In this document: piece by piece, positions 50,397 to 64,000 of the stretch | Numbering within the stretch: the stretch's first letter is position 1 | Layout: each line of letters opens with the position of its first letter | Assembly: GCA_018830645.1 (NCBI GenBank) | Contig: JAHJSA010000068.1 | Span: 1-64,000, forward strand | Length of the DNA: 64,000 nucleotides | From: Actinomycetota bacterium | GTDB taxonomy: Bacteria > Actinomycetota > Thermoleophilia > RBG-16-64-13 | Direction: 5' to 3' | The notes under the pieces: model-generated | Database searches by the model: none | The model's input: only the letters and a program-made list of their open reading frames with translations | What the model was told of the DNA's origin: nothing | Program-made: the position numbers and the translations under genes

Positions 50397-50455
50397 TCTA
50401 CTCAGTGTAGAGTACTGGAGCAACGCACTGGGTTCTCGTCACTACATCGTGTAGT
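50397..50455. promoter_or_regulatory. Two BlaI-type operator-like inverted repeats upstream of the TPR gene
   Basis: TCTAC-TCAGT-GTAGA (50397-50411) and ACTAC-ATCGT-GTAGT (50441-50455) keep the 5-nt spacer of the TACTAC-N5-GTAGTA family seen at 53449, 53468, 62016 and 63651. They lie 67 to 125 bp before the TPR gene. Confidence 0.7.
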
Positions 50456-50521
50456 ATCCCGTTTCGACGTTCTCCAGTGACGGCACAGCGGAAAATCGGA
50501 CGGTCGAAAGGAAGCGCGCGG

Positions 50522-51208
50522 ATGAACAGGAACTACCTTGTCGCCATCATCGTGGCGGCCGTCGTCGTGGTCGGCCTCATCGTGGTGGTACCCAACCTCG
50601 ATGGCGGGAACACCGGCGGAACCAGCGGAACCACTGTTGGATCCGCGCCTCCCATCCCGGAGGACGCTACCGTGCCCGAGGGCCATCCCGACCTGGGGGA
50701 AGGCTCAGATACGACCGGCGCGGACGCCACTCTCGAGGCTCTCGTGGCCGAAGCTGAGGCCGCCTACGAGGCCGATAAGACCGACCTGACGGCAGTCCTG
50801 GCGCTCGGAGACGCGTATCTTCAGGCGAGCCGGTTGGACGAAGCGACCCGCGTGTTGAACGAAGCCCTGGCGATCGATGCAGGGAACGCCGACGCCAAGG
50901 CCGGTCTGGCCATGGTCGACTTCGTGAACGGTGACACCGCGGCGGCGCAGAGCAAGCTTGAAGCTGTCATCGCTGAGTCCCCCGACTCGCAGGTGGCCCT
51001 CTACGACCTCGCGGTGGTCTACTTCTCGACGGATCAGCGCGACAAGGCGAAGGACACGTGGGCGAAGGTGGTCGAGGTCAACCCGCTGAGCGAGTTGGGC
51101 GAGATGGCGAAGCAGTTCATCGATCTCATGGGTCAGACGGAGACCTCGGGCGGCAGCCCGCACGGCGCCGATGGCTCGGCGGGGACCACGGTCACCACGA
51201 GCCCGTGA
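50522..51208 (+). CDS. Membrane-anchored tetratricopeptide (TPR) protein
   Basis: 228 residues: one N-terminal helix (YLVAIIVAAVVVVGLIVVV), a Gly/Thr linker, then about three TPR units (ALGDAYLQASRLDEATRVLNEAL, AKAGLAMVDFVNGD, ALYDLAVVYFSTDQRDKAKD). It resembles the TPR part of CcmI/NrfG-type cytochrome assembly factors, which hold apocytochrome C-termini. ATG 50522 follows AAAGGAAG. Two BlaI-type sites precede it, linking it to the ccm regulon proposed here. Confidence 0.85.
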   Translation: MNRNYLVAIIVAAVVVVGLIVVVPNLDGGNTGGTSGTTVGSAPPIPEDATVPEGHPDLGEGSDTTGADATLEALVAEAEAAYEADKTDLTAVLALGDAYLQASRLDEATRVLNEALAIDAGNADAKAGLAMVDFVNGDTAAAQSKLEAVIAESPDSQVALYDLAVVYFSTDQRDKAKDTWAKVVEVNPLSELGEMAKQFIDLMGQTETSGGSPHGADGSAGTTVTTSP

Positions 51209-52162: not shown

Positions 52163-52231
52163 GAGTGGGCTCCACGCGGACGCATCGACTTGCGCGTCAA
52201 TAGGAAAAACCGACCTTCAGGAGTGGTCTCA

Positions 52232-53392
52232 ATGGCCTTCGGCATGACTTCGCGGATCCGGCGCGCCGTCCTCTACATCGCACTGCTCGTGGCGGCCTCG
52301 CTGATCCTGGCCGCATTCATCGCTGCCCGGCCGGTCGCAGCCGAGGAGCACACGACCACCTCGAGCACCTCGGCCACGTCGACCACGTCCGGCACGACCG
52401 ACGAAACGACCTCGGTCACGACGGGCGGTACGACCAGCGTGACGACCACAGCCTTGGTCGCTCGACCCGGCGTCACACCCGCGCCCGAAGGCTACGAACC
52501 GGTGAACCCCGGTCTGTTGGCCGCGCAGATGGGGGTGCAGATCTGGCCGGAGTACGACACCAAGGACGTGCTGGTGCTTCTCGACGTCACCCTGCCGGCT
52601 ACCACCGTGTTTCCCTACTCCTTCAGCTTCTACGTGCCGAAGGGGGCGAGGCTCGCCGGCTTGGCGGAGATCACCGAGGCCGGCGGCTTCGACTACACCC
52701 TCGGGGTACCTGTGCAGGTGCCCGGTGAGGTGATGGACCTCGTGACCGTCACGGTACCCAAGCGCCCGGTGTTGCGTCTCGAGTACTACTACGATCCAGG
52801 CGTCGGCGCTCCTGGTCAGAAGTCGTTCCCGATCCTCTTCCAGGCTCCCGCCGACGTGGGTTCGCTGTCCTTCGGCGTGCAGCAACCATTGGACGCTTCC
52901 GCCTTCACGACAGAACCGGCCCTATCTCAGTCGTCCACCGACTCCCAGGGCTCCACCTACTTCTTCACGAACTTCTCCGCCATCAAGGCGGGCGAGATGG
53001 TCGAGGTGCAGGTCTCCTACACGAAGACGAGTGCCGATCCATCGTTCTCTTCCGGTTCGACCGGCAGCGATCCGGTACAGTCGACGAACAGCAACCTTCT
53101 CCTGCTGATGCTCGCGGCCATCGTTCTCGTTATCGGGGGGATGGTCGCGTATCGTCTGTTGGGCCGCCGTGAGCCTGCGCCCGCCGGCAGGGGCGCCGCT
53201 TCGCGGGCGGGTGGAAGTGCGGGCGGTCGGCCGGCTTCGCGATCCGATGGTCGATTGAAATCGCGCGCCTCCGGCGGTCGGGGCTCGAGTGAGGATGCGG
53301 GCGGGCCCGCACGGTTCTGCACGCAATGCGGAAGCCGCCTCCAGAAGAAGGATCGTTTCTGCCCGTCCTGCGGACACCCGCGGGAATCCTGA
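52232..53392 (+). CDS. Exported-domain membrane protein with C-terminal zinc ribbon (paralogue 1)
   Basis: 386 residues: signal or anchor helix, a Thr-rich linker, an extracytoplasmic beta domain containing QIWPEYDTKDVLVLLDVTLP and FYVPKGA, a transmembrane helix (LLLLMLAAIVLVIGGMVAY), and a cytoplasmic end with a zinc ribbon CTQCG...FCPSCG. CAGGAG precedes ATG 52232. It shares its plan with the protein at 53589; both belong to a family I do not recognise by name. The ribbon may recruit a cytoplasmic partner while the outer domain senses or binds something. Confidence 0.75.
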   Translation: MAFGMTSRIRRAVLYIALLVAASLILAAFIAARPVAAEEHTTTSSTSATSTTSGTTDETTSVTTGGTTSVTTTALVARPGVTPAPEGYEPVNPGLLAAQMGVQIWPEYDTKDVLVLLDVTLPATTVFPYSFSFYVPKGARLAGLAEITEAGGFDYTLGVPVQVPGEVMDLVTVTVPKRPVLRLEYYYDPGVGAPGQKSFPILFQAPADVGSLSFGVQQPLDASAFTTEPALSQSSTDSQGSTYFFTNFSAIKAGEMVEVQVSYTKTSADPSFSSGSTGSDPVQSTNSNLLLLMLAAIVLVIGGMVAYRLLGRREPAPAGRGAASRAGGSAGGRPASRSDGRLKSRASGGRGSSEDAGGPARFCTQCGSRLQKKDRFCPSCGHPRES

Positions 53393-53448
53393 TGGTCTGC
53401 TGAATCCGGCTGCCTGGACGGCAGGCCGGTTGCTGGGATTCCGCCCCT

Positions 53449-53490
53449 ACTACGGTATGTAGTTGATTCCTACTACACAGCGTAGTAGGA
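53449..53490. promoter_or_regulatory. Two BlaI-type operator-like inverted repeats upstream of zinc-ribbon paralogue 2
   Basis: ACTAC-GGTAT-GTAGT (53449-53463) and TCCTACTAC-ACAGC-GTAGTAGGA (53468-53490, 9-bp arms). Both have the 5-nt spacer; the second is the longest copy in the window. They lie 100 bp before ATG 53589. Confidence 0.78.
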
Positions 53491-53588
53491 TGCCGCAGAA
53501 GTAAGCGCCGGCGTTCACAAGCTTGGTGGTTGGGCGGATCCATATGCCGGCGTACGGACCGGATACCAGCGGCACGAGGGGATCCAGC

Positions 53589-54545
53589 ATGAGTAGTTCT
53601 GGCGGAAGACGGTATGTGAGGGCGGCGCTTGTGGTACTGACCTCCTTGGCGTTGGTGCTGCTGCTCAGTCCGGCAGCGTTGGCCGCCGGGATGTCGGCTT
53701 CATCGATGAAGGTATCGATTTGGCCCGAGTATGACGACCCCCGCGTGTTGGTGATATACCAGGCGGAACTCGATGAATCGGTGCAGCTTCCCGTGGACGT
53801 GACCTTCAACGTGCCGAAGGGAGCCGACATCGCGATGGCGTGCGAGGTCGACCCTTCCGATGGACACTCCTGCAAACCGTTCCAACTTATCGACCAGGGG
53901 GACTATCAGAGCCTCACCTATACTGTCGAGGCCCAGCGGAAGGTCTTCTTCGAGTACTACTACGATGCCTTCCCGGTCGGGCAGGCGCAGCGCGAGTTCG
54001 ATGTGCCTCTTCGCCTCACCTTTCCGGTGGCCGAATTGACGGTCGAAGTGCTGGAACCCGCACGATCGAGCGGGTTCGTTCTGAATCCCGACTTCCCCCG
54101 GCAGACCCGGGACTCCAAGGGGCTCACGTATTATCTCCAGACAATCGCGTCTCCCGCTCTTGAGGAGCCGGTGACGGTTGGCATCTCGTACAGCAAGCAG
54201 GACGCTGATCCTTCGGTGGCTCCTTCCTCTGATGGTTCCCCACCGAGTCCGGCCGCCGCCGGCGGAAGCACCGGTTCTTCGAACGGCAAGACCTTTGCGT
54301 TCCTCGTGGTGGTCGTTGGCATCGCCGCACTCGGTTTGGGGGGCTACAGCGCGTTCCGGCCCCGCCCAGCGGTGGCCCGGAGTCGAGATACGACCCCGAA
54401 TAGGAGGCCTTCGAGGCCGGTGCGCGAGGTCCAAGGCGGCGACGGCAGGTCGGCTCGTGGGCAAGGCAAGTTCTGCACTCAGTGCGGCGAGAAGATAGGT
54501 GGGCGCGACCGCTTCTGCCCCGACTGTGGCAACGAGCAAGGCTGA
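53589..54545 (+). CDS. Exported-domain membrane protein with C-terminal zinc ribbon (paralogue 2)
   Basis: 318 residues with a cleavable-looking signal (VLTSLALVLLLSPAALAAG), the domain beginning SIWPEYDDPRVLVIYQAELD with FNVPKGAD, a helix (FLVVVVGIAALGLGGYSAF) and the ribbon CTQCGEKIGGRDRFCPDCG. It mirrors the gene at 52232. GAGGGGATC precedes ATG 53589. BlaI-type sites upstream suggest regulation with the ccm genes downstream. No enzyme motif is visible. Confidence 0.75.
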   Translation: MSSSGGRRYVRAALVVLTSLALVLLLSPAALAAGMSASSMKVSIWPEYDDPRVLVIYQAELDESVQLPVDVTFNVPKGADIAMACEVDPSDGHSCKPFQLIDQGDYQSLTYTVEAQRKVFFEYYYDAFPVGQAQREFDVPLRLTFPVAELTVEVLEPARSSGFVLNPDFPRQTRDSKGLTYYLQTIASPALEEPVTVGISYSKQDADPSVAPSSDGSPPSPAAAGGSTGSSNGKTFAFLVVVVGIAALGLGGYSAFRPRPAVARSRDTTPNRRPSRPVREVQGGDGRSARGQGKFCTQCGEKIGGRDRFCPDCGNEQG

Positions 54546-54581
54546 TCAGGTGCGTGCACGCGACCTCGACGGGCTGCCGGT

Positions 54582-55163
54582 ATGAAGATGCGGCCGTTGG
54601 TCACCGCTATCGTCTTGGCGATCGTCGGCGCTATGGCGGTGTGGTCCTTCTGGGCCAACGTGTTGGATCCGCACCCGGCGGGTGCCCCGAGCGCTGCGGC
54701 GCCGAGCTCCGCGCCCCCGAGTTCCGCGCCCCCCGCGGAGAGTTCGCCGCTGCCGCCGGCGCTCGCCGGCCTGCCTCTCGTGGCCGAGTTGAGCGGAGAG
54801 CAGGGCCTCGCCTCCGTGGAGGAACTCCACGGCAAGGCGCTCGGCGAGGGGTTCGACGCGGCGTGGGTGGGTGAGTACGAGAGCCAAGGTCGTGCCACCC
54901 TGTGGGTGAGTAGGTCGGTGCGTGAGATCGACGCCGAGGAGCTGCTGGTACGCATGACCGATCGCATCATGGAGGGAGACTCACCTTTTTCCCGGCCGGT
55001 GCCGATTGAAATGCAGGGCGTGCCGGCATACCGGCTGGAAGGCATGGGCCAGGTGCACTACTACTTCCGGTCGGGCGGGTACCTCTATTGGCTGGGGATA
55101 GACGCCCCGTTGTCCGAGGCCGGACTCGGCGAGTTGGTCGCTGCCGCGAAGGTAGTGAAGTGA
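54582..55163 (+). CDS. Exported protein of unknown function
   Basis: 193 residues: N-terminal helix (LVTAIVLAIVGAMAVWSFW), a Pro/Ser/Ala linker and a soluble domain (about 65-193). That domain ends in paired strands (VHYYFRSGGYLYWLGID) and a helix (GLGELVAAAKVVK), similar in shape to small sensor or anti-sigma outer domains. No family is recognised. It lies between the zinc-ribbon gene and ccmE1 on the same strand and is probably cotranscribed with them. Confidence 0.65.
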   Translation: MKMRPLVTAIVLAIVGAMAVWSFWANVLDPHPAGAPSAAAPSSAPPSSAPPAESSPLPPALAGLPLVAELSGEQGLASVEELHGKALGEGFDAAWVGEYESQGRATLWVSRSVREIDAEELLVRMTDRIMEGDSPFSRPVPIEMQGVPAYRLEGMGQVHYYFRSGGYLYWLGIDAPLSEAGLGELVAAAKVVK

Positions 55164-55228
55164 GATATGGACGACGTGAAGCGTGAACGGCGAGATGTGA
55201 TGGTCGTCGAGCGAAGGAGCGGGTCGCG

Positions 55229-55690
55229 GTGACGGAATCGAATGTGGCGCCTGTGGCGGTGGGCGGTTCGGGGCGTGGGTGGAAGATGATCGCTGGTGCA
55301 ATCGTGCTCGTGTTGGCCGCGGGCTGGTTGCTGCTCTACGCGACTGTGGGCGGCGACTTCTACATGACCGTGGGCGAACTCGGGGAAGCCGGCGACGCCG
55401 CCAACGTGCGAGTGGGCGGGCAGGTCGTGCCGGATAGCGTCACCCAAATGGGAGATACGGCTACCTTCACGATACGGGATGAGTCCGGCGCTGCTCTCGA
55501 CGTGGTCTATACCGGAGCGTTCCCCGAGCGTTTGCGGTCGTACGAATACGTCGTGGCCACGGGTTCCGTGCAGCCCGGCGGTCCCTTCGAGGCTGTGGAG
55601 GTTCTGGTAAAATGCCCCGACAAGCTCTTCGCTGAGAAACTCACCAATGGCGTCCTCGGTGGAGTGGGTCTCGAAAGGGTCCTCTATTGA
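55229..55690 (+). CDS. CcmE-like heme chaperone 1 (Cys-type)
   Basis: 153 residues: one N-terminal anchor helix and the CcmE OB-fold (NVRVGGQVVP, TFTIRDESG, LDVVYTGAFPERL). Standard CcmE binds heme through the His of HDENY. Here the equivalent segment reads KCPDKL with Cys at residue 129, as in the CxxxY-type CcmE of sulfate reducers and archaea, but the Tyr position is Leu. GTG 55229 follows AAGGAGC. A second Cys-type CcmE follows, so this copy may have a changed role. Confidence 0.82.
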   Translation: MTESNVAPVAVGGSGRGWKMIAGAIVLVLAAGWLLLYATVGGDFYMTVGELGEAGDAANVRVGGQVVPDSVTQMGDTATFTIRDESGAALDVVYTGAFPERLRSYEYVVATGSVQPGGPFEAVEVLVKCPDKLFAEKLTNGVLGGVGLERVLY

Positions 55691-55766
55691 GCACTCCATC
55701 CCTCATTCTCGCAGTGCCTCACGAGATCACCGGCCGGTCGTTGTCGTTCCCGGAAGGGGTAATCGC

Positions 55767-56189
55767 ATGGAGTCAAAGAAGCTGAAGTTCCTGGTGGGCG
55801 GTGTTGTGATCATAGGCGCGATCGCCACGCTGGCCTTCTTCGCGGTCCGCGAGAACATGGTGTACTACTACACGGTCACGGAGATGCTCGACAAGGGCCA
55901 GTCGGCGAACGTGCGCGTGGCGGGCGACCTGGTCAGCGGAACCCTTGTCAAGGGCAGAGTGGGCGAGCCCATCGAGTTCGAGATCTACGACAAGGAAGCC
56001 ACGGAGAACACGCTGTTCATCGAGTACACGGGCGCTGTGCCCGACACGTTCGTGGACGATCCGAACCAGCCTGTGGAGGTCGTCGTGGAAGGGGACTACC
56101 TTTCGGACGGCACCTTCGCCGCAGACTTCCTCATGGCGAAGTGCCCGAGCAAGTACGAGAGTGCGGAGAGCGCGGCTGCGGGGAAGTGA
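55767..56189 (+). CDS. ccmE: CcmE-like heme chaperone 2 (CxxxY-type)
   Basis: 140 residues: anchor helix and OB-fold (NVRVAGDLVSGTL, IEFEIYDKE, FIEYTGAVPD). The heme-binding segment reads AKCPSKY, with Cys126 and Tyr130 keeping the CxxxY form described for natural Ccm variants. GGAAGGGG precedes ATG 55767. It holds heme covalently for transfer to apocytochromes through CcmF. It sits 130 bp before ccmF. Confidence 0.88.
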   Translation: MESKKLKFLVGGVVIIGAIATLAFFAVRENMVYYYTVTEMLDKGQSANVRVAGDLVSGTLVKGRVGEPIEFEIYDKEATENTLFIEYTGAVPDTFVDDPNQPVEVVVEGDYLSDGTFAADFLMAKCPSKYESAESAAAGK

Positions 56190-56313
56190 CCGGTCGGACG
56201 GGTGCGCCTCGATCATGGGGCGCATCGTATTCTCGGGACGATGGACAAGTGGAGTCGCTGGCTGACGCCGTCGTACGCCGACGGCACATGAAAGGCACGG
56301 AGGATCAACCTAT

Positions 56314-58317
56314 ATGAATCAGATCGGCTATTCGGCGCTGTTGCTGGCGGTTCTCACCTCGGCCTTCGGGTTGGTCGCGCCGTTGATCGCGGTGCGCACC
56401 AAGAGCCGGGGGTGGATGAAGACCGCCGAAAGAAGCGTGTACGGACTGTGCGCGGTCTCGCTGGTCGCGTCGGCCGCGCTCCTCTACGCGCTCGTGACGC
56501 GCGACTACACGAACGAATACGTCTACAACTACACGTCGAACGAGCTCTCGTGGTTCTACACGTTCTCTGCGTTCTGGGCCGGCAACTCCGGTTCGTTGCT
56601 GCTGTGGCTGGTGATCCTTGCCGTCTTCACGGCTGTGGTCGTATGGCAGAACCGCGCCAAGAACAGGGAGATCCTGCCGTACGTGATCTCGATCCTGATG
56701 TCCATCGCACTCTTCTTCTCCCTCATGATGGTGACCTCCCGCGGGTCGAACCCCTTCGCGATGGTGCCGGCGGGCGTCTTCCCGGCCAACGGTTCGGGTC
56801 TCAACCCCATGTTGGAAAACCCGGGCATGGTCGTGCACCCCATCACTCTTTTCCTGGGCTACGTGGGCTTCGCGATCCCGTACGCCTTCGCGATGGCCGC
56901 CCTCATAACACGGAGACTCGGCGACTTCTGGATCCGCTCTACGCGACGCTGGACCGTCTTCGCCTGGATATTCCTTACGATCGGCAACATCGTGGGCGCG
57001 TGGTGGGCCTACGTGACGCTTGGCTGGGGCGGATACTGGGCGTGGGATCCCGTGGAGAACGCCTCCTTCATGCCGTGGGTCACCGGCACGGCCTTCCTTC
57101 ACTCCGTGATGATCCAGGAGAAGAAGGACATGCTGAAGGTGTGGAACATCGTGCTCATAGTGGCCACCTTCTCGCTGACCATCTTCGGCACGTTCCTCGT
57201 CAGGTCCGGCGTCGTGAGCTCGGTTCACAGCTTCGGCCAGAGCAGCCTGGGCTTCTTCTTCTTGGGCTTCCTGGGGCTGATCCTCGTGTTCTCGCTGAAC
57301 CTGCTGTTCAGCCGCCTCGACATGCTCAAATCCCGCAACGAGTTGGATAGTTTCGTTTCGCGTGAGTCGAGCTTCCTGCTCAACAACCTGCTCCTCGTGG
57401 GCATAGCGATGACCGTGCTCTGGGGCGTGCTCTTCCCGATCATCAGCGAAGCCGTCACCGGCAACAAGGTGACGGTGGGCCCGCCGTTCTTCGATCAGGT
57501 GATCGCTCCCATCGGCCTGGTCCTCATGTTCGTCACCGGCATATGCCCCCTGATCGCCTGGCGACGCGCCACCTTGGCCAACCTCCGCAAGAACGTTACC
57601 TACCCAGGTCTCGTGGCGATCGTGGTCCTGGTGGCCCTCATCGTGACCGGGATGCGCCACACGTACGCGATCATCAGCTTCACTCTCTGCGCCTTCGTGG
57701 TCACCACCGTACTCATGGAGTTCGCCCGCGGTGCGTGGGTGCGGCGGGAGATGTCGGGGGAGAACCTCGCCAAGGCGCTCCTGTCGCTCACGTGGCGCAA
57801 CAAGCGGCGTTACGGCGGCTACATCGTGCACATCGGGGTCATCTTGTTTCTGTTTGGAGTCACGGGCTCGTATGCGTTCAAGCAGCAGGAATCGCGCACG
57901 ATCACAAAGGGGGAGTCCATCTCGGTGGGAGGGTACGAGGTTACCTACGATAGCTTCGACTCGTACGACACCACCGAGAAGCGTGTTGGCACTGTCACGT
58001 TCACGGTGTCCGAGAACGGGCGGTTCCTTGGGACCGTGGCTCCGCGGAAGGAGTATTACTTCGCGAAGGATCAGCCGTGGACGCGCATAGACCGCCACGT
58101 CACTCTGGAGCGCGACGTGTACGTGTCCCTACTCGACTACTCAGCCGAGACAGGCGAGGCCAACGTCGAGGTTCGCATCAATCCTCTGGTGAGCTGGTTG
58201 TGGATCGGGGGGATCGTGATGGTCATCGGCGGTATTGTCGCCATTTGGCCTGACAAGCGTGACGCTCAACGTCTGGCGGCTCGCTATGAAAGACAGGTGA
58301 GGCTGCATGAGATCTAG
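56314..58317 (+). CDS. ccmF: Cytochrome c heme lyase subunit CcmF
   Basis: 667 residues, about 14-15 helices. The tryptophan-rich WWD motif WGGYWAWDPVENASFMPW and flanking periplasmic His residues (MVVHPITL, RHTYAI region) bind heme during ligation to CXXCH apocytochromes. A large periplasmic loop follows near the C-terminus. The stop overlaps ccmH by 11 nt. Confidence 0.95.
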   Translation: MNQIGYSALLLAVLTSAFGLVAPLIAVRTKSRGWMKTAERSVYGLCAVSLVASAALLYALVTRDYTNEYVYNYTSNELSWFYTFSAFWAGNSGSLLLWLVILAVFTAVVVWQNRAKNREILPYVISILMSIALFFSLMMVTSRGSNPFAMVPAGVFPANGSGLNPMLENPGMVVHPITLFLGYVGFAIPYAFAMAALITRRLGDFWIRSTRRWTVFAWIFLTIGNIVGAWWAYVTLGWGGYWAWDPVENASFMPWVTGTAFLHSVMIQEKKDMLKVWNIVLIVATFSLTIFGTFLVRSGVVSSVHSFGQSSLGFFFLGFLGLILVFSLNLLFSRLDMLKSRNELDSFVSRESSFLLNNLLLVGIAMTVLWGVLFPIISEAVTGNKVTVGPPFFDQVIAPIGLVLMFVTGICPLIAWRRATLANLRKNVTYPGLVAIVVLVALIVTGMRHTYAIISFTLCAFVVTTVLMEFARGAWVRREMSGENLAKALLSLTWRNKRRYGGYIVHIGVILFLFGVTGSYAFKQQESRTITKGESISVGGYEVTYDSFDSYDTTEKRVGTVTFTVSENGRFLGTVAPRKEYYFAKDQPWTRIDRHVTLERDVYVSLLDYSAETGEANVEVRINPLVSWLWIGGIVMVIGGIVAIWPDKRDAQRLAARYERQVRLHEI

Positions 58318-58861
58318 CACGCATCCCAGGCGCCGAGTGGTTCGTGCTTCCGCCAAGGTGGCCTCGCGGCCGGTCTTGCCTTGGCCGGCCATGCTGCTCG
58401 GCGCCGTCGTGGTCGCGGTTGCCGCTCTATTGTTCATCGCGATGCCCGCCTCCGCGGCGCCGCCGGTATCGAGTGTGGCCGACGAGCTCATATGTCAGTG
58501 TGGGTGCGGCTCGGTGCTCACGGTGTGCCCGCACCAGGAGTGCGGCTGGGGCATCCCGGCCAAGCAGTACATCGGGCAGCAGCTGGAAGCCGGCCGTTCG
58601 CCGGAGGACCTCGTGCAGTACTACGTGGACGAATATGGCGAACAGGTTCTGGCCGCTCCCACGAAGCGTGGCTTCAACATGGTGGCGTGGGTGGCGCCGT
58701 TCGCCGCGCTCATCATCGGCGCCGTAGCGGTGTACTTCCTTATCGGTGTGTGGGCGCGGCGCAATGGATCGGATACGGAGACGGTGTCGGTTCGCGAGAC
58801 CGACCTCGCTCCTGAGAGCCTACAACGCAGGCTCGATGACGAGCTGCGGGAGTTCGATTGA
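58307..58861 (+). CDS. ccmH: Cytochrome c maturation protein CcmH (second copy)
   Basis: 184 residues: signal anchor, the Cys-rich active segment LICQCGCGSVLTVCPHQECG, the CcmH core YVDEYGEQVLAAPTKRGFN and a C-terminal helix. It reduces and presents apocytochrome thiols. Unlike the copy at 43872 it has several closely spaced Cys. The two proteins share the same ending (RRLDDELREFD versus SRLDEELSRFD), which shows common origin. Confidence 0.92.
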   Translation: MRSSTHPRRRVVRASAKVASRPVLPWPAMLLGAVVVAVAALLFIAMPASAAPPVSSVADELICQCGCGSVLTVCPHQECGWGIPAKQYIGQQLEAGRSPEDLVQYYVDEYGEQVLAAPTKRGFNMVAWVAPFAALIIGAVAVYFLIGVWARRNGSDTETVSVRETDLAPESLQRRLDDELREFD

Positions 58862-58925
58862 AGCGCGGTGAGTATCGCCGGGGCGCCCCGCGGGTGGCGT
58901 CGATCGTCGTCAGCGCGAAGGAGTG

Positions 58926-59543
58926 ATGCAGAACGTGTTCGAGATGCTGATCCAGGTGATTCTGGCCCTATCGGTGGTGGCCTTCGTCGGCTACCCGCTC
59001 CTCAAGGGCGCGCAGGCGGGCGAGGACGAAGAGCAGCCACTCTCCGTGGAGTTCGAGGATCTACTCCGCAGGAAGGAGTCAACGTACTCCGCCCTGAAGG
59101 AACTGGAGTTCGATTTCAAGATGGGCAAGCTGTCCGACAGGGATTACGGGGAGATCGACGCGCGCTATCGCGAGGATGCCCTGGAGATACTCGAGGCGAT
59201 CGAGGAGGCTGAGAAGGGGCCGTCTTCGGTCGGCTCCGGGGCCAAGCGTCGCGCCAAGAGCACCGGGCGTCAAGCGGAGAGCCGCCCCTCAGCGTCTCCG
59301 CGGCCGAAGCCCGCGAAGGCGACCACCATCGGGAGGACGGCAGCGACTGTCACCTGCGCCGACTGCGGTCGCGAGAACCCGCCGGGTTCCCGCTTCTGCG
59401 CCTCGTGTGGCGTCGATCTCGAAGAAGCACCGACCGGCGCCGGTGCAGTCGGCTCTGACCAGCTCGTCTGCGACGAGTGCGGGCGTGACGTGGCTGCCGA
59501 TCACCGGTTCTGCGCCGGCTGTGGCGCGGAGGTGGAGGCCTGA
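58926..59543 (+). CDS. CcmI-like membrane protein with two C-terminal zinc ribbons
   Basis: About 205 residues: one helix, then the CcmI-type stretch LLRRKESTYSALKELEFDFKMGKLSDRDY, a Ser/Pro/Ala/Lys linker, and two zinc ribbons (CADCGRENPPGSRFCASCG and CDECG...FCAGCG). The plan matches the two zinc-ribbon membrane proteins upstream and recurs in this organism's ccm region. The role is inferred from position between ccmH and ccmA. GAAGGAG stands unusually close to ATG 58926; GTG 58923 or 58935 remain possible. Confidence 0.8.
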   Translation: MQNVFEMLIQVILALSVVAFVGYPLLKGAQAGEDEEQPLSVEFEDLLRRKESTYSALKELEFDFKMGKLSDRDYGEIDARYREDALEILEAIEEAEKGPSSVGSGAKRRAKSTGRQAESRPSASPRPKPAKATTIGRTAATVTCADCGRENPPGSRFCASCGVDLEEAPTGAGAVGSDQLVCDECGRDVAADHRFCAGCGAEVEA

Positions 59544-59611
59544 GATCACCGGTCGTCGAGGAGGCGGGTGGGGACCGGGGCATCCGGGGCGACACGACCG
59601 GGGGCCGGGAC

Positions 59612-60331
59612 TTGGCCATCCGCGTGAAGGGCCTATGGAAGTACTTCGATCACTTCCCGGCGATCCGTGGGCTCGACGTGGAGTTGGAGCTCGGGCGGTT
59701 CCTCACGGTGTTCGGACCCAACGGAGCCGGCAAGACCACCCTGATCAGGGTGCTCTCCACCCAGATCCAGCCCTCGCAGGGCGAGGTTGAAGTGGGGGGG
59801 TGCGTACTTCCCGGCCAGGCGTACCGCCTGCGCCGGCACGTGGGAGTCATCTCGCATAACACGTACCTCTACCCGAACTTGACGGCGCGGGAGAACCTGA
59901 CGTTCTTCGGGCGCATGTACCGGGTACCCGACCTCGGCGACCGCATCAAGACGCTTCTGGAAGAGGTCGGTCTGAGCGGTCGTCGCGACGACCTCGTTCG
60001 TACCTACTCGAGGGGCATGCAACAGCGGCTCTCCATCGCGAGGGCACTTCTGCACGACCCCGATATCATGTTCCTCGATGAGCCTTACACGGGGCTTGAT
60101 CAGCACGCATCTAGGATGCTGCGCGACGTTCTGAAGACGCTCCATACCGGTGAACGCACACTCGTGATGACCACCCACAACATCGAGCAGGGTCTCGAGA
60201 TGTGCGACGAGGTGGCCATCCAAGTGCGCGGGCGCCTCGTCTTCAGGGAGAATGTCGGCGCCATCGACCGCGCCGGCTTCGAGCAGACCTATTTCGATCA
60301 CGTGGGCAAGGACTTCCGTTGGGATTCCTGA
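59612..60331 (+). CDS. ccmA: Heme ABC exporter ATPase CcmA
   Basis: 239 residues. Walker A GPNGAGKTT, signature YSRGMQQR, Walker B IMFLDEPYTGLD and H-loop MTTHN. CcmA with CcmB drives release of heme-loaded CcmE from CcmC. TTG 59612 is the start. The C-terminus overlaps ccmB by 13 nt. Confidence 0.9.
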   Translation: MAIRVKGLWKYFDHFPAIRGLDVELELGRFLTVFGPNGAGKTTLIRVLSTQIQPSQGEVEVGGCVLPGQAYRLRRHVGVISHNTYLYPNLTARENLTFFGRMYRVPDLGDRIKTLLEEVGLSGRRDDLVRTYSRGMQQRLSIARALLHDPDIMFLDEPYTGLDQHASRMLRDVLKTLHTGERTLVMTTHNIEQGLEMCDEVAIQVRGRLVFRENVGAIDRAGFEQTYFDHVGKDFRWDS

Positions 60332-60996
60332 GCCAAGCTTGGGTCATCGCCCGCAAGGACATCATCGGGGAACTCCGAACCCGGGAGACAGTCCTCTCCA
60401 TGCTGCTCTTCGGCTTCCTTGTGATCTTGATCTTCAACTTCGGCATCGAGCCGGGGCTGCGGGAAGAGAACCTCGTGAAACCCGGTGTGCTCTGGGCGGC
60501 CTTCACCTTCGCCGGTATCCTCGGGCTCAACCGCAGCTTCATAGCCGAGAAGGAGAACGACTGCCTGCAAGGCCTGCTGCTCTGCCCGGTGGACCGCTCC
60601 GTCATCTACCTCGGCAAGTTCTTCGGTAACTTCATCTTCACCCTGAGCATGGGCTTGGTGGTGTTCCTGTTCTTCTCGGTGCTGTACAACGTGAATCTGG
60701 TGCAGGTGGCACTGCCTCTAGGCGCCATCCTCGTGCTCACGACCATCGGGTTCACCGCTGTCGGCACACTGTTCTCGGCGGTATCGGTGGGGCTGAAGAC
60801 GCGCGACGTGATCCTCTCGATCCTGCTCATCCCGGTGATGGTGCCCGTGGTACTCGCCGCGGCGAAGTCCTCGGGGCGCGTGCTCGACGGCGATTCGCTG
60901 GCCGGCGCCGGCCTGTGGCTCGCCTTGTTGGTGGTCTATGATGTGATCTTCCTGACAGTGGCGATCATGCTGTTCGACTACGCTGTGGAGGAGTGA
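60319..60996 (+). CDS. ccmB: Heme exporter membrane subunit CcmB
   Basis: 225 residues, about six helices. CcmB features include ARKDIIGELRTRETVLSMLLFG and the E-N-D block FIAEKENDCLQGLLLCPV. TTG 60319 follows AAGGA and gives the standard family length; the stop overlaps ccmC. It forms the membrane pore of the CcmAB complex. Confidence 0.92.
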   Translation: MGFLSQAWVIARKDIIGELRTRETVLSMLLFGFLVILIFNFGIEPGLREENLVKPGVLWAAFTFAGILGLNRSFIAEKENDCLQGLLLCPVDRSVIYLGKFFGNFIFTLSMGLVVFLFFSVLYNVNLVQVALPLGAILVLTTIGFTAVGTLFSAVSVGLKTRDVILSILLIPVMVPVVLAAAKSSGRVLDGDSLAGAGLWLALLVVYDVIFLTVAIMLFDYAVEE

Positions 60997-61793
60997 TGAC
61001 GACCGTGTCTCGAGGGAGTTCCGTGGAGCACGACACGCAGGCGGCCGTCGCGGGTGGAGGATCCTCCGGCGGTGGCGCGACCACAGCGACGGCCGTTCAT
61101 CCAACCGGCGCCGAGCGCCCCCTGTGGCTCGACGTTTTGGGCGTGGCGGCCATCGCCTCGGTACTCGTGGCGCTGTACGGCGCCATCATCTGGGCGCCTA
61201 CCGAGGCGGTCATGGGCCACGTGCAGCGCATCTTCTACTTCCACATGCCGAGCGCCTGGGTGGCGTTGGGACCCGCGTTCACCATCGTCTTCATCTGTAG
61301 CATCGTGTACCTCGTGAAGAAGGATCTACGCTACGACCGGATCGCGGGGGCCTCCGCGGAGCTGGGAGTGCTCTTCACCACGATCACGCTTCTCACCGGA
61401 CCGCTGTGGGCCAAGCCCATTTGGGGCGCCTACTGGACCTGGGACCCGCGTCTCACCACCACGCTGGTCCTCTGGTTCATTTACGTGGCCTACCTCATGC
61501 TCCGGTCCTCGATCACCGAGGGGCACAGGCGCGCCCGGCTCTCAGCCGTGTTCGGCATCGTAGGGTGGATCGACGTGCCGATCGTCTTCATGTCAATACG
61601 GTGGTGGCGTACTATCCACCCCACCTTGGTCACGGGGGAGGGGATGAACCTCGATAGTTCGATGCAGGCCGTCCTCGTATTCGCGCTCGGCGCCATCTCC
61701 CTCCTGTATGTCTACCTTCTCGTCGTGCGGGTCCGTCAGCTCGACATGGGCTCGCGCATCGATCGTCTGCGTCAACAATCCCACCTGCGCTAG
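60996..61793 (+). CDS. ccmC: Heme handling protein CcmC
   Basis: 265 residues, about six helices after a 40-residue Gly/Ala-rich N-terminus. The WWD-type motif GAYWTWDPRLTTTLVLW and His residues (FYFHMPSAW, RTIHPT) attach heme to CcmE. ATG 60996 overlaps the ccmB stop (TGATG), with GGAGG upstream. Confidence 0.94.
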   Translation: MTTVSRGSSVEHDTQAAVAGGGSSGGGATTATAVHPTGAERPLWLDVLGVAAIASVLVALYGAIIWAPTEAVMGHVQRIFYFHMPSAWVALGPAFTIVFICSIVYLVKKDLRYDRIAGASAELGVLFTTITLLTGPLWAKPIWGAYWTWDPRLTTTLVLWFIYVAYLMLRSSITEGHRRARLSAVFGIVGWIDVPIVFMSIRWWRTIHPTLVTGEGMNLDSSMQAVLVFALGAISLLYVYLLVVRVRQLDMGSRIDRLRQQSHLR

Positions 61794-61804
61794 GAGTCGC
61801 CTGC

Positions 61805-61948
61805 ATGAATGAGCTAGGTTTCCTGTTCGCCGGATACGCCGTAGTCTGGGTGGCCCTCGGTGGGTACATGCTCGCTGTCGGCCGTCGGCAGTCCACGCTG
61901 CGGCGAGAGATCGCCCGGCTCGAACAGGAGTTCCGCACCGGAGAGTGA
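61805..61948 (+). CDS. ccmD: Small CcmD-type membrane protein
   Basis: 47 residues starting 12 bp after ccmC. One helix (FLFAGYAVVWVALGGYMLAV) is followed by a basic segment RRQSTLRREIARLEQEF, the usual CcmD layout. CcmD assists release of holo-CcmE from CcmABC. Confidence 0.85.
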   Translation: MNELGFLFAGYAVVWVALGGYMLAVGRRQSTLRREIARLEQEFRTGE

Positions 61949-62015: not shown

Positions 62016-62032
62016 TACTACGACTGGTAGTA
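62016..62032. promoter_or_regulatory. BlaI-type operator-like inverted repeat upstream of blaI
   Basis: TACTAC-GACTG-GTAGTA, full 6-bp arms and 5-nt spacer, 31 bp before ATG 62064. Location before the repressor gene suggests autoregulation, as in known bla/mec systems. Confidence 0.82.
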
Positions 62033-62063: not shown

Positions 62064-62501
62064 ATGGGTGGAGCGGTGAATCTCAACACGGGTCAAGAAG
62101 GGCTGCGTCAGGTACTCGGCGAACTCGAGGCCGAGATCATGGAGTGCATGTGGGATCGCGGCTCTTCGTCGGTGCGCGAGATCTACGAATGTCTCGCCGA
62201 GCGGCGTGAGATCGCATACACCACGGTCATGACGGTGATGGGCAGGCTGGCCGACAAGGGCCTGCTCAGCCGCCGGCAGCAGGGTCGGGCCTATCTGTAC
62301 AGCCCGTCGGAGACGCGTGATTCGTTCTGCGCCGGGGTCGTGCGGAGTGTGGTGGAGGGTCTCTTCGGGGGCGCGAACCGCCCCGTGCTCGCCCACTTCG
62401 TGGAGCAGCTGTCGAACGAGGATGGAGCCGATCTCGACATGCTGGCCGCGATCATCGATGAGAAGCGCCGGGAGCGGCGATCATCGACACCTTCGGCCTG
62501 A
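62064..62501 (+). CDS. BlaI/MecI/CopY-family transcriptional repressor
   Basis: 145 residues. The winged helix shows LEAEIMECMWDRG, SVREIYECLAERREIAYTTVMTVMGRLADKGLL and RAYLYSP. BlaI repressors bind TAC...GTA palindromes and are inactivated by proteolysis triggered by a BlaR1-type membrane protease, encoded next. GAGGTGG precedes ATG 62064. No beta-lactamase or penicillin-binding gene is nearby, so the classical drug response does not fit the context. Confidence 0.93.
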   Translation: MGGAVNLNTGQEGLRQVLGELEAEIMECMWDRGSSSVREIYECLAERREIAYTTVMTVMGRLADKGLLSRRQQGRAYLYSPSETRDSFCAGVVRSVVEGLFGGANRPVLAHFVEQLSNEDGADLDMLAAIIDEKRRERRSSTPSA

Positions 62502-62536
62502 CAGTCACCTACGCGCTCATCCTGGCCGGGCCTTGG

Positions 62537-63562
62537 TTGGTCCGCCGCTTCCTCGAGGGCCGTGCGCGGCCGCGCACTCTGGCCTACACCTACCTCGCCA
62601 CTCTTCTCGCCGCCGCGGGCGCTACGCTCGCCCTGCTCGTATCGCTCTTGCTGCGGTATCTGCCGCACGGCCTGCTCACTCGGGCGGGGCTGGCGTGCGA
62701 TATGGAGGAAGCCTGTGCGACGCCCCTACCGCCCTGGGCGGGGTCCACCTTCTCCTTCCTCATCGGCGGAGTGATCGTAGGGCTCGTGCTGTTCGCCGGG
62801 GTCGCGATATATGGGCAGACCAGTAGCTCCACGCGTAGACGACTCGACGTGGTGAGTTCGGCGATGGAGTTCCCGGGTACGGTCCCGTCGGGCCTGCGTG
62901 GACGGGTGTACCTCGTCGACGACCCCGCGCCCGTCTCCTACACCATCGGCTTCTGGAGGCCTCAAGTCATCGTGTCTTCGGGTCTCCTTGCCACCCTCGA
63001 CGCAGACGAGCTCAGTGCAGCCCTCGCGCACGAGGAGGGCCACGTAGCAGCGGCCGACAACCTTATAGTGCTCGTGGCGCGGACGCTCGCTCTGACCTTC
63101 GCTCTAGTGCCCGGCGTGGGCATGGCCTACGCCCGGTTGCGCAAGGCGCAGGAGCGGGCGGCCGACGAGTTCGCCCGCGATCGCACCGGCGACGGCCTTC
63201 TGGTGGCCGCCAGTCTCACTAAGTTCGCACGTTCACTGCTCCCGCCGGCGCCTTCCCGCCGGGTCGAGATCGCGACCACGTCTTTCGCCGAAGAGGGAGA
63301 TGTCAGCGAACGTGTACGCGGCCTCCTCTCCAACGGCCGTGTCGCCACCTCGAAGCGCCGGCTGGCCGCGATAGCCCTCGTCTTCGTGGTGCTTGTGACC
63401 ACGTTCGCCGGCAGCGCCCTGGCGTTCACCGGCGTCACGTTGGCCTCGCGGTCGGATTGCTCGGCGTGCCATGAGTCTCGGGTGGCGTCCACCGGCGCTG
63501 CCACGATGCACGAGGACCCGAGCCTGCACGCGGAGTGCGTGGATACCGTCGTTCAGTACTGA
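62537..63562 (+). CDS. BlaR1-like M56 metalloprotease with a C-terminal CXXCH heme motif
   Basis: At least 341 residues. The zinc motif HEEGH (165-169) lies between helices, with the downstream QERAADEFARD segment of M56/M48 enzymes. The last helix ends SALAF and is followed by CSACH (308-312), a MH and HAEC segment, but no penicillin-sensor domain. The CXXCH should face outside and could take covalent heme from the Ccm system. Start uncertain: the TTG 62537 drops a first helix (TFGLTVTYALILAGPW) that fits the family. An in-frame stop at 62459 leaves only ATC 62480/62483, which follow GGGAG, or CTG 62498. Confidence 0.85.
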   Translation: MVRRFLEGRARPRTLAYTYLATLLAAAGATLALLVSLLLRYLPHGLLTRAGLACDMEEACATPLPPWAGSTFSFLIGGVIVGLVLFAGVAIYGQTSSSTRRRLDVVSSAMEFPGTVPSGLRGRVYLVDDPAPVSYTIGFWRPQVIVSSGLLATLDADELSAALAHEEGHVAAADNLIVLVARTLALTFALVPGVGMAYARLRKAQERAADEFARDRTGDGLLVAASLTKFARSLLPPAPSRRVEIATTSFAEEGDVSERVRGLLSNGRVATSKRRLAAIALVFVVLVTTFAGSALAFTGVTLASRSDCSACHESRVASTGAATMHEDPSLHAECVDTVVQY

Positions 63563-63650: not shown

Positions 63651-63667
63651 TACTACGCTCTGTAGTA
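63651..63667. promoter_or_regulatory. BlaI-type operator-like inverted repeat upstream of the last gene
   Basis: TACTAC-GCTCT-GTAGTA, full arms and 5-nt spacer, 43 bp before the GTG at 63711. Confidence 0.82.
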
Positions 63668-63710: not shown

Positions 63711-64000
63711 GTGGCGAAGAAGCAGGCGGCCCCGAGGGGCGATCTGAAGGAAAAGCGGGAGCGTTTCGAGGAGGCGGGCAAGTTCCCCGTGGGGAAGCTG
63801 ATCTCGGTGAGCGTCATCGTGCTCGGGCTCGCGTTCGGCGGCTTCGCGGCGTACCAGTACTTCGTGGTTCCGCAGGCGGTGGGTGGCGCGACCGTGGACT
63901 CCGGCGTTACGTATCCGGCGGGTCGGGTGCCCATGGTCCCGTTCGATGGAGCGCAGCAGACTGCCGAAGGCCTCTCTTTCCCCGTGCAGACTCTGAAGGA
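63711..64000 (+). CDS. Membrane-anchored exported protein, 5' part
   Basis: The window ends inside this gene. GGGGAG precedes GTG 63711. The product starts with a charged cytoplasmic segment (KEKRERFEEAGKFP), one helix (LISVSVIVLGLAFGGFAAY) and an outer segment beginning VTYPAGRVPMVPFD. The last feature resembles the start of DUF2318-type domains, which are membrane-anchored and carry C-terminal cysteines, but the visible part is too short to be sure. Its BlaI-type site links it to the proposed regulon. Confidence 0.6.
   Translation, partial: MAKKQAAPRGDLKEKRERFEEAGKFPVGKLISVSVIVLGLAFGGFAAYQYFVVPQAVGGATVDSGVTYPAGRVPMVPFDGAQQTAEGLSFPVQTLK

Follow-up and report, generated by a model that had tools for sequence, protein, structure and literature searches.

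BlaI and BlaR1 are the textbook system for beta-lactam sensing, and a BlaI-type repressor gene placed beside an M56 membrane protease with no penicillin-binding domain raises two questions: what such a pair senses, and which genes it controls. For sensing by M56 proteases of this kind, the literature that we found offers PetRP only. Judged by title and abstract, none of the papers found linked a BlaI/M56 pair to cytochrome c maturation (ccm) genes; a 2015 paper by Durand reportedly has copper and cytochrome c assembly in its title. The pair considered here lies in the window, meaning the whole stretch of 64,000 nucleotides that was analyzed (contig C68:1-64000 of a high-GC assembly of 3.87 Mb).

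The repressor gene (62064-62501, + strand) encodes a protein of the BlaI/CopY type that matches Penicillinase_R (PF03965) with an E-value of 9e-31. Its top NCBIfam match is CopY_TcrY (E 1e-16), although the score of 61.4 bits falls below the curated family cut-off of 121.95 bits. A profile search found a single strong BlaI genome-wide, with a second match just clearing the cut-off. Directly downstream, in the adjacent-repressor arrangement of BlaR1 and MecR1, is the M56 gene (62483-63562, + strand), whose product is the only M56 match of the genome in the profile search. It matches Pfam M48 (1.6e-10) and M56 (9e-9), both above cut-off, and houses the HExxH-type zinc protease motif HEEGH at 63029-63043 within the M56 domain. 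These are its only Pfam matches, and the roughly 44 residues that follow the last transmembrane helix leave no C-terminal penicillin-binding domain. The sequence-only reading had described an M56 protease with HEEGH and CSACH motifs, beside BlaI and lacking the penicillin-binding domain, and the Pfam matches, coordinates and tail length confirm that description. The nearest named relative found is a metagenome-assembled genome of an uncultured “Actinomycetes bacterium”, whose M56 protein is 81% identical, and a scan of genome contigs returned one true relative, L022. Another candidate from this comparison, L023, was rejected as a short match inside what seems to be an HtpX-type protease. A sequence search of the PDB with the M56 protein returned HtpX alone (E 0.02), and structure prediction from two sequences gave an unusable model (pLDDT 38, pTM 0.25).

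The M56 gene has no ATG, GTG or TTG upstream of the first transmembrane helix, and comparison of start codons makes an ATC at 62480 or 62483 the likely start. The same standard codons are missing ahead of this helix in most of 21 homologues, and the start-codon column holds a conserved ATC or ATA, with an ATG in G095 and, in G072, a position one codon past a stop codon. The comparison suggests a non-standard start codon within 62480-62485, which may keep expression of the protease low.

Upstream of the pair lies a System I ccm operon on the + strand, running from a zinc-ribbon gene to a CcmD-like ORF (53523-61948) and assigned mainly by Pfam. It is headed by a zinc-ribbon membrane protein (53523-54545) and a hypothetical protein (54582-55163), followed by two CcmE-domain proteins (55229-55690 and 55767-56189), CcmF (56314-58317), CcmH (58307-58861), a protein in the CcmI position (58923-59543), CcmA (59612-60331), CcmB (60319-60996) and CcmC (60993-61793). 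The last member is an ORF of 47 amino acids (61805-61948), which is called CcmD-like by position alone, since its single Pfam match is below cut-off. The pair had been placed directly after ccmD in the earlier description; the order ccmC, 47-residue ORF, blaI and M56 stands, while the ccmD identity is positional only. Secreted or membrane paralogues with a C-terminal zinc ribbon recur at palindromic sites and as the first genes of ccm operons (52190-53392, 53523-54545, L016:8882-10084 and L019:7399-8457).

On the other side of the pair, an FtrD-like (PF10080) gene begins at 63711 on the + strand and runs past the end of the window to C68:64346. Beyond the window it is followed by genes for two FtsX permeases, an ABC ATPase, a TlpA-like thioredoxin and CcdA. 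The TlpA-like gene (L015:7489-8244; contig C68:67489-68244) has an in-frame TGA at the position of the first redox cysteine, in the context W-TGA-P-x-C, and a gene of this form is common to G001, G005, G010, G012 and G014. A hairpin follows the TGA in six genomes, five of which have a tRNA-Sec above cut-off, and the product is a probable selenocysteine TlpA.

A palindrome with the consensus TACTAC-N5-GTAGTA, to which no strand is assigned, connects these genes. An exact copy, TACTACGACTGGTAGTA, is found 25-31 bp upstream of blaI (62016-62032), with equivalents in G001, G005 and G012 and with one mismatch in G010 and G014. A second exact copy, TACTACGCTCTGTAGTA, is located 43 bp before the FtrD-like gene (63651-63667) and is conserved in G001, G005, G010 and G014. 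The ccm operon is preceded by a doubled site, made up of a copy with one mismatch (53448-53464) and an exact copy (53471-53487) with equivalents in G001, G005, G010, G012 and G014. Another site with one mismatch (50440-50456) precedes a TPR gene (50477-51208) by 20 bp and has an equivalent in G001. Genome-wide, eight exact palindromes were observed against 0.03 expected from base composition, and the distance from site to gene is 20-145 bp for blaI, ccm, the FtrD-like operon and other genes. Outside the window, one exact site precedes the gene for a 1440-residue cytochrome with 35 CXXCH motifs, and the remaining exact sites are found before a second ccmF operon, the gene of a zinc-ribbon paralogue, a gene akin to the YHS-type targets of relatives and a gene for a 70-residue secreted protein. 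A site with one mismatch also precedes genes for a secreted protein and a NapH-like polyferredoxin. For patterns with one mismatch the control was uninformative (30 against 14), and the statistics were therefore limited to exact sites, for which the control gave 0-2. No beta-lactamase gene is found at the sites in the window, and the sites on contig C15 of G010 and C43 of G014 have no clear target gene.

The order ccm, palindrome, blaI, M56, palindrome and FtrD-like/ABC/CcdA operon is kept in G001, G005, G010 and G014, with the FtrD-like gene unmatched in G010, and is partly kept in G012 and G004. Family members that carry the pair, eight genomes in all, have 8, 9, 5, 3, 8, 2, 2 and 0 exact palindromes, against none in nine of the ten genomes without it, the tenth having one site and being 64% complete. 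Seven genomes encode a CcmF of the window type (at least 67% identity), and each of them has the pair; of the 11 genomes that lack this CcmF, one carries the pair. The Mann-Whitney p for palindrome counts is 4e-4 and the Fisher p for CcmF is 2.5e-4, values that are optimistic because related genomes were treated as independent. From the autoregulatory position of the site and this co-occurrence, we infer that BlaI binds the palindrome. The wiring of the pair to cytochrome c maturation genes is well supported at the level of sequence, and we consider it highly likely that the genes behind these sites form a regulon under its control. A link of BlaI and M56 to cytochrome maturation genes had been guessed from the window, and the palindromes at blaI, ccm and the FtrD-like/ABC/CcdA operon, kept across genera, lend it good support.

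BlaI and M56 orthologues also occur in a sister family (f6). Most of these loci have a related site upstream of blaI, and in several a homologous polyferredoxin operon (30.5% identity, E 3e-73) is preceded by paired sites. In the genomes of the 13 sister-family M56 orthologues whose tail reads CX3H...C, no full CcmF was found; a fragment of 71 residues lies at the end of a contig in G067. With the pair and its sites present where no full CcmF is found, the ccm wiring in the window's family looks like a later addition to an older regulator. Palindromes with one mismatch also occur in the sister family upstream of PCYCGC-type secreted proteins (L138:252-671 and L139:4788-5141, both on the - strand), the PCYCGC match having been examined for L139 alone; PCYCGC (PF13798) is an uncharacterized family.

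What the protease might sense is suggested by its outer parts. In most of 22 homologues, hydropathy and positive-inside counts assign the C-terminal tail and the loop between TM2 and TM3 to the outer side of the membrane and the protease region to the inner side. CSACH (63458-63472) is predicted to face outward, as the sequence-only reading had supposed, and not the cytoplasm. The loop contains a CX5C motif (62696-62716) that is present in all nine sequences of the window's own family; the sister-family loops have a single Cys. The tail spans 44 residues (63428-63559) and also contains HAEC (63527-63538). At least one Cys is present in the tail of all 22 orthologues, making it the most constant tail residue, and His is likewise conserved in most. 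The window species and G001 share all six Cys and His residues of the tail, but only 13 of its 30 other residues (p 0.014). The exact motif is more variable. A CXXCH (CSACH, CSTCH or CAACH), followed by H-x2-C, is found in three of the 22 orthologues, from the window species, G001 and G005, while the tail reads CALSH...HH in G012, SP[TA]CH...PH..YCTGH in G010 and G014, and CX3H...C, mostly with an extra His, in the 13 sister-family proteins. With these variants, CXXCH is a special case of a wider Cys/His site, and the conserved feature, as read from the alignment and predicted topology, is an extracytoplasmic Cys/His cluster. Among the further residues that had been called conserved, the H-x2-C of HAEC is kept in the three species, while of MH only the His is found in the nearest relative, and no homologue supports the idea that HAECVDTV is a decayed second CXXCH. 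More distant BlaI-linked M56 proteins of the phylum that lack the penicillin-binding domain often have tails with Cys, some of the form CX5C...CC. Four or five Cys are seen in the outer tails of the BlaI-linked M56 proteins L153, L158, L161, L162, L163, L169 and L170, for example CGMGPECAAMNYECCK. The tail of the window protein is probably the sensor.

We propose a switch similar to PetRP. BlaI would bind TACTAC-N5-GTAGTA and repress its own operon, the ccm operons and the FtrD-like/FtsX/ABC/Sec-TlpA/CcdA operon, as well as the genes for the multihaem cytochrome, polyferredoxin and small proteins that resemble metal-binding ones. The M56 protease would be embedded in the membrane, its active site on the cytoplasmic side, and the outer CX5C loop together with the short outer Cys/His tail would form the sensor site. 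A soft metal bound at this site, with Cu(I) as the likeliest, would trigger cleavage of BlaI and derepress the regulon, leading to more cytochrome c assembly and more thiol and selenol reduction. The cleavage of BlaI, the direction of the response and the ligand are parts of the scheme that we infer. We give a switch in which a soft metal at the cluster gates BlaI cleavage, and hence cytochrome c assembly, about an even chance of being right, and hold a metal ligand, with Cu(I) as the leading candidate, to be a similarly balanced proposition.

Several pointers lead to a soft metal. A secreted protein of 70-72 residues with the pattern H..H[MC]...G-H...C...C and variable Met is encoded downstream of a palindrome in five genomes (L018:8889-9101, -; L121:4519-4737, -; L130:4411-4629, -; L129:4831-5049, +; and L128: about 1537-1752, -), and this Cys/His-rich family has no convincing Pfam match. 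In G001 and G005 the targets include YHS-type proteins, to which one target in the window's genome is related; the YHS Pfam matches among targets or paralogues in G005 and G012 are weak and below cut-off. Genes for copper-type P-ATPases or HMA proteins lie within about 5 kb of palindromes in G000, G005 and G012, a link by proximity. The small secreted protein, the YHS-type targets, the nearby copper ATPase and HMA genes, and the precedent of PetP all point in this direction. The copy of the secreted protein in the window's genome contains PHAECTGH, and the M56 tail contains LHAEC; a weak match to the secreted protein in G003 was set aside as apparently antisense to a ccmC-like gene. Against a fixed metal site, the set of possible tail ligands varies from three Cys to one. 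Against copper, BlaI scores below the CopY cut-off, and the FtrD-like and polyferredoxin targets are equally compatible with iron. Sequence alone does not separate soft metal, thiol state, iron and heme as the signal.

The sequence-only reading had proposed a different signal, in which CSACH receives heme c from the Ccm machinery and this attachment, or the redox or ligand state of the heme, gates cleavage of BlaI as a feedback on Ccm throughput. System I requires both Cys and the His of CXXCH. The window species, G001 and G005 have an outer CXXCH beside ccm, followed by H-x2-C, the regulon is one of cytochrome c maturation, and in the window species the motif is predicted to lie outside, in a genome that encodes System I. 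However, G012, G010 and G014 are identically wired but lack one Cys of the motif, and the 13 sister-family orthologues have CX3H...C tails in genomes in which full CcmF was not found. Conservation of CXXCH among M56 homologues near ccm, which had been suggested as a check, holds in the nearest genera and fails beyond them. With the motif in three of 22 orthologues and lost in proteins that keep the ccm wiring, heme on CSACH is not upheld as the general signal, and we regard gating by covalently attached heme as very unlikely. We give just as little credence to a narrower version, in which the tail became a true c-heme site in the window's genus and its nearest neighbors and the protease, with heme c bound covalently, reports assembly capacity; if it were true, Ccm's own product on a signaling protease would provide that report.

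That the Cys/His tail binds metal or reports thiol state is more probable than that it carries heme. As a thiol-disulfide sensor, the protease would use disulfides of the loop and tail Cys to report the outer redox state, which decides whether the CXXCH of an apocytochrome can accept heme. The constancy of Cys in the tail (22/22) and of CX5C in the loop (9/9 in the family), the occurrence in the regulon of CcdA together with what is probably a selenocysteine TlpA, and the Cys-only tails of distant relatives are all consistent with this, but His is conserved in most tails as well, the sister-family loops have a single Cys, and the His/Cys-rich secreted target would be left unexplained. We consider a thiol sensor unlikely. 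It is also conceivable, but rather improbable, that non-covalent binding of Fe2+ or free heme to the tail adjusts the cytochrome genes and the FtrD-like, iron-transport-like ones to the supply of iron or heme. The FtrD-like (PF10080) protein and Fer4_5 polyferredoxins among the targets, and the polyferredoxin operon with palindromes in the sister family, would fit, while Cys/His sets are unusual ligands for Fe2+ and the nearby copper ATPases and Cys/His-rich secreted target favor a softer metal.

The palindrome links a pair that lacks the penicillin-binding domain to a complete System I ccm operon, a thiol and selenol reductant pathway and a multihaem cytochrome, and the conserved outer Cys and His residues offer a concrete, mutable sensor site. 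Together, these make two questions testable: how M56 proteases without a penicillin-binding domain are activated, and how cytochrome c assembly is tuned to outer metal or redox conditions.

Among known systems, an arrangement of FtrD-like, FtsX, ABC and thioredoxin genes is known from iron-uptake clusters. The target operon here resembles these in its FtrD-like protein, paired FtsX, ABC ATPase and thioredoxin, but FTR1 and P19 genes are not seen and the operon stands behind a BlaI-type site. CopY/TcrY repressors provide the top NCBIfam match to BlaI and share its Pfam family; BlaI here, however, reaches half the curated cut-off score, has no CXC metal motif by reading and has a protease partner. 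As in BlaR1/BlaI and MecR1/MecI, an M56 zinc protease lies beside a BlaI repressor, with palindromic sites that include an autoregulatory one. The defining penicillin-binding sensor domain is absent, with a 44-residue Cys/His tail and an outer loop instead, and the pair is therefore not BlaR1. In Synechocystis, copper-activated PetP degrades the BlaI-like repressor PetR (PMC7896320; PMC13421787). PetR/PetP (slr0240/slr0241) likewise combines a BlaI-like repressor with a BlaR1-like M56 protease that lacks the penicillin-binding domain, and it controls electron-transfer targets, the plastocyanin and cytochrome c6 genes, by copper, whereas the predicted regulon here is composed of cytochrome c maturation, multihaem cytochrome and metal or thiol genes. 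The likeness to PetRP is by description alone, the system here being known from its sites before ccm and the multihaem cytochrome. By this analogy, the pair would be closest in its working to PetRP, with BlaR1/BlaI as a further likeness.
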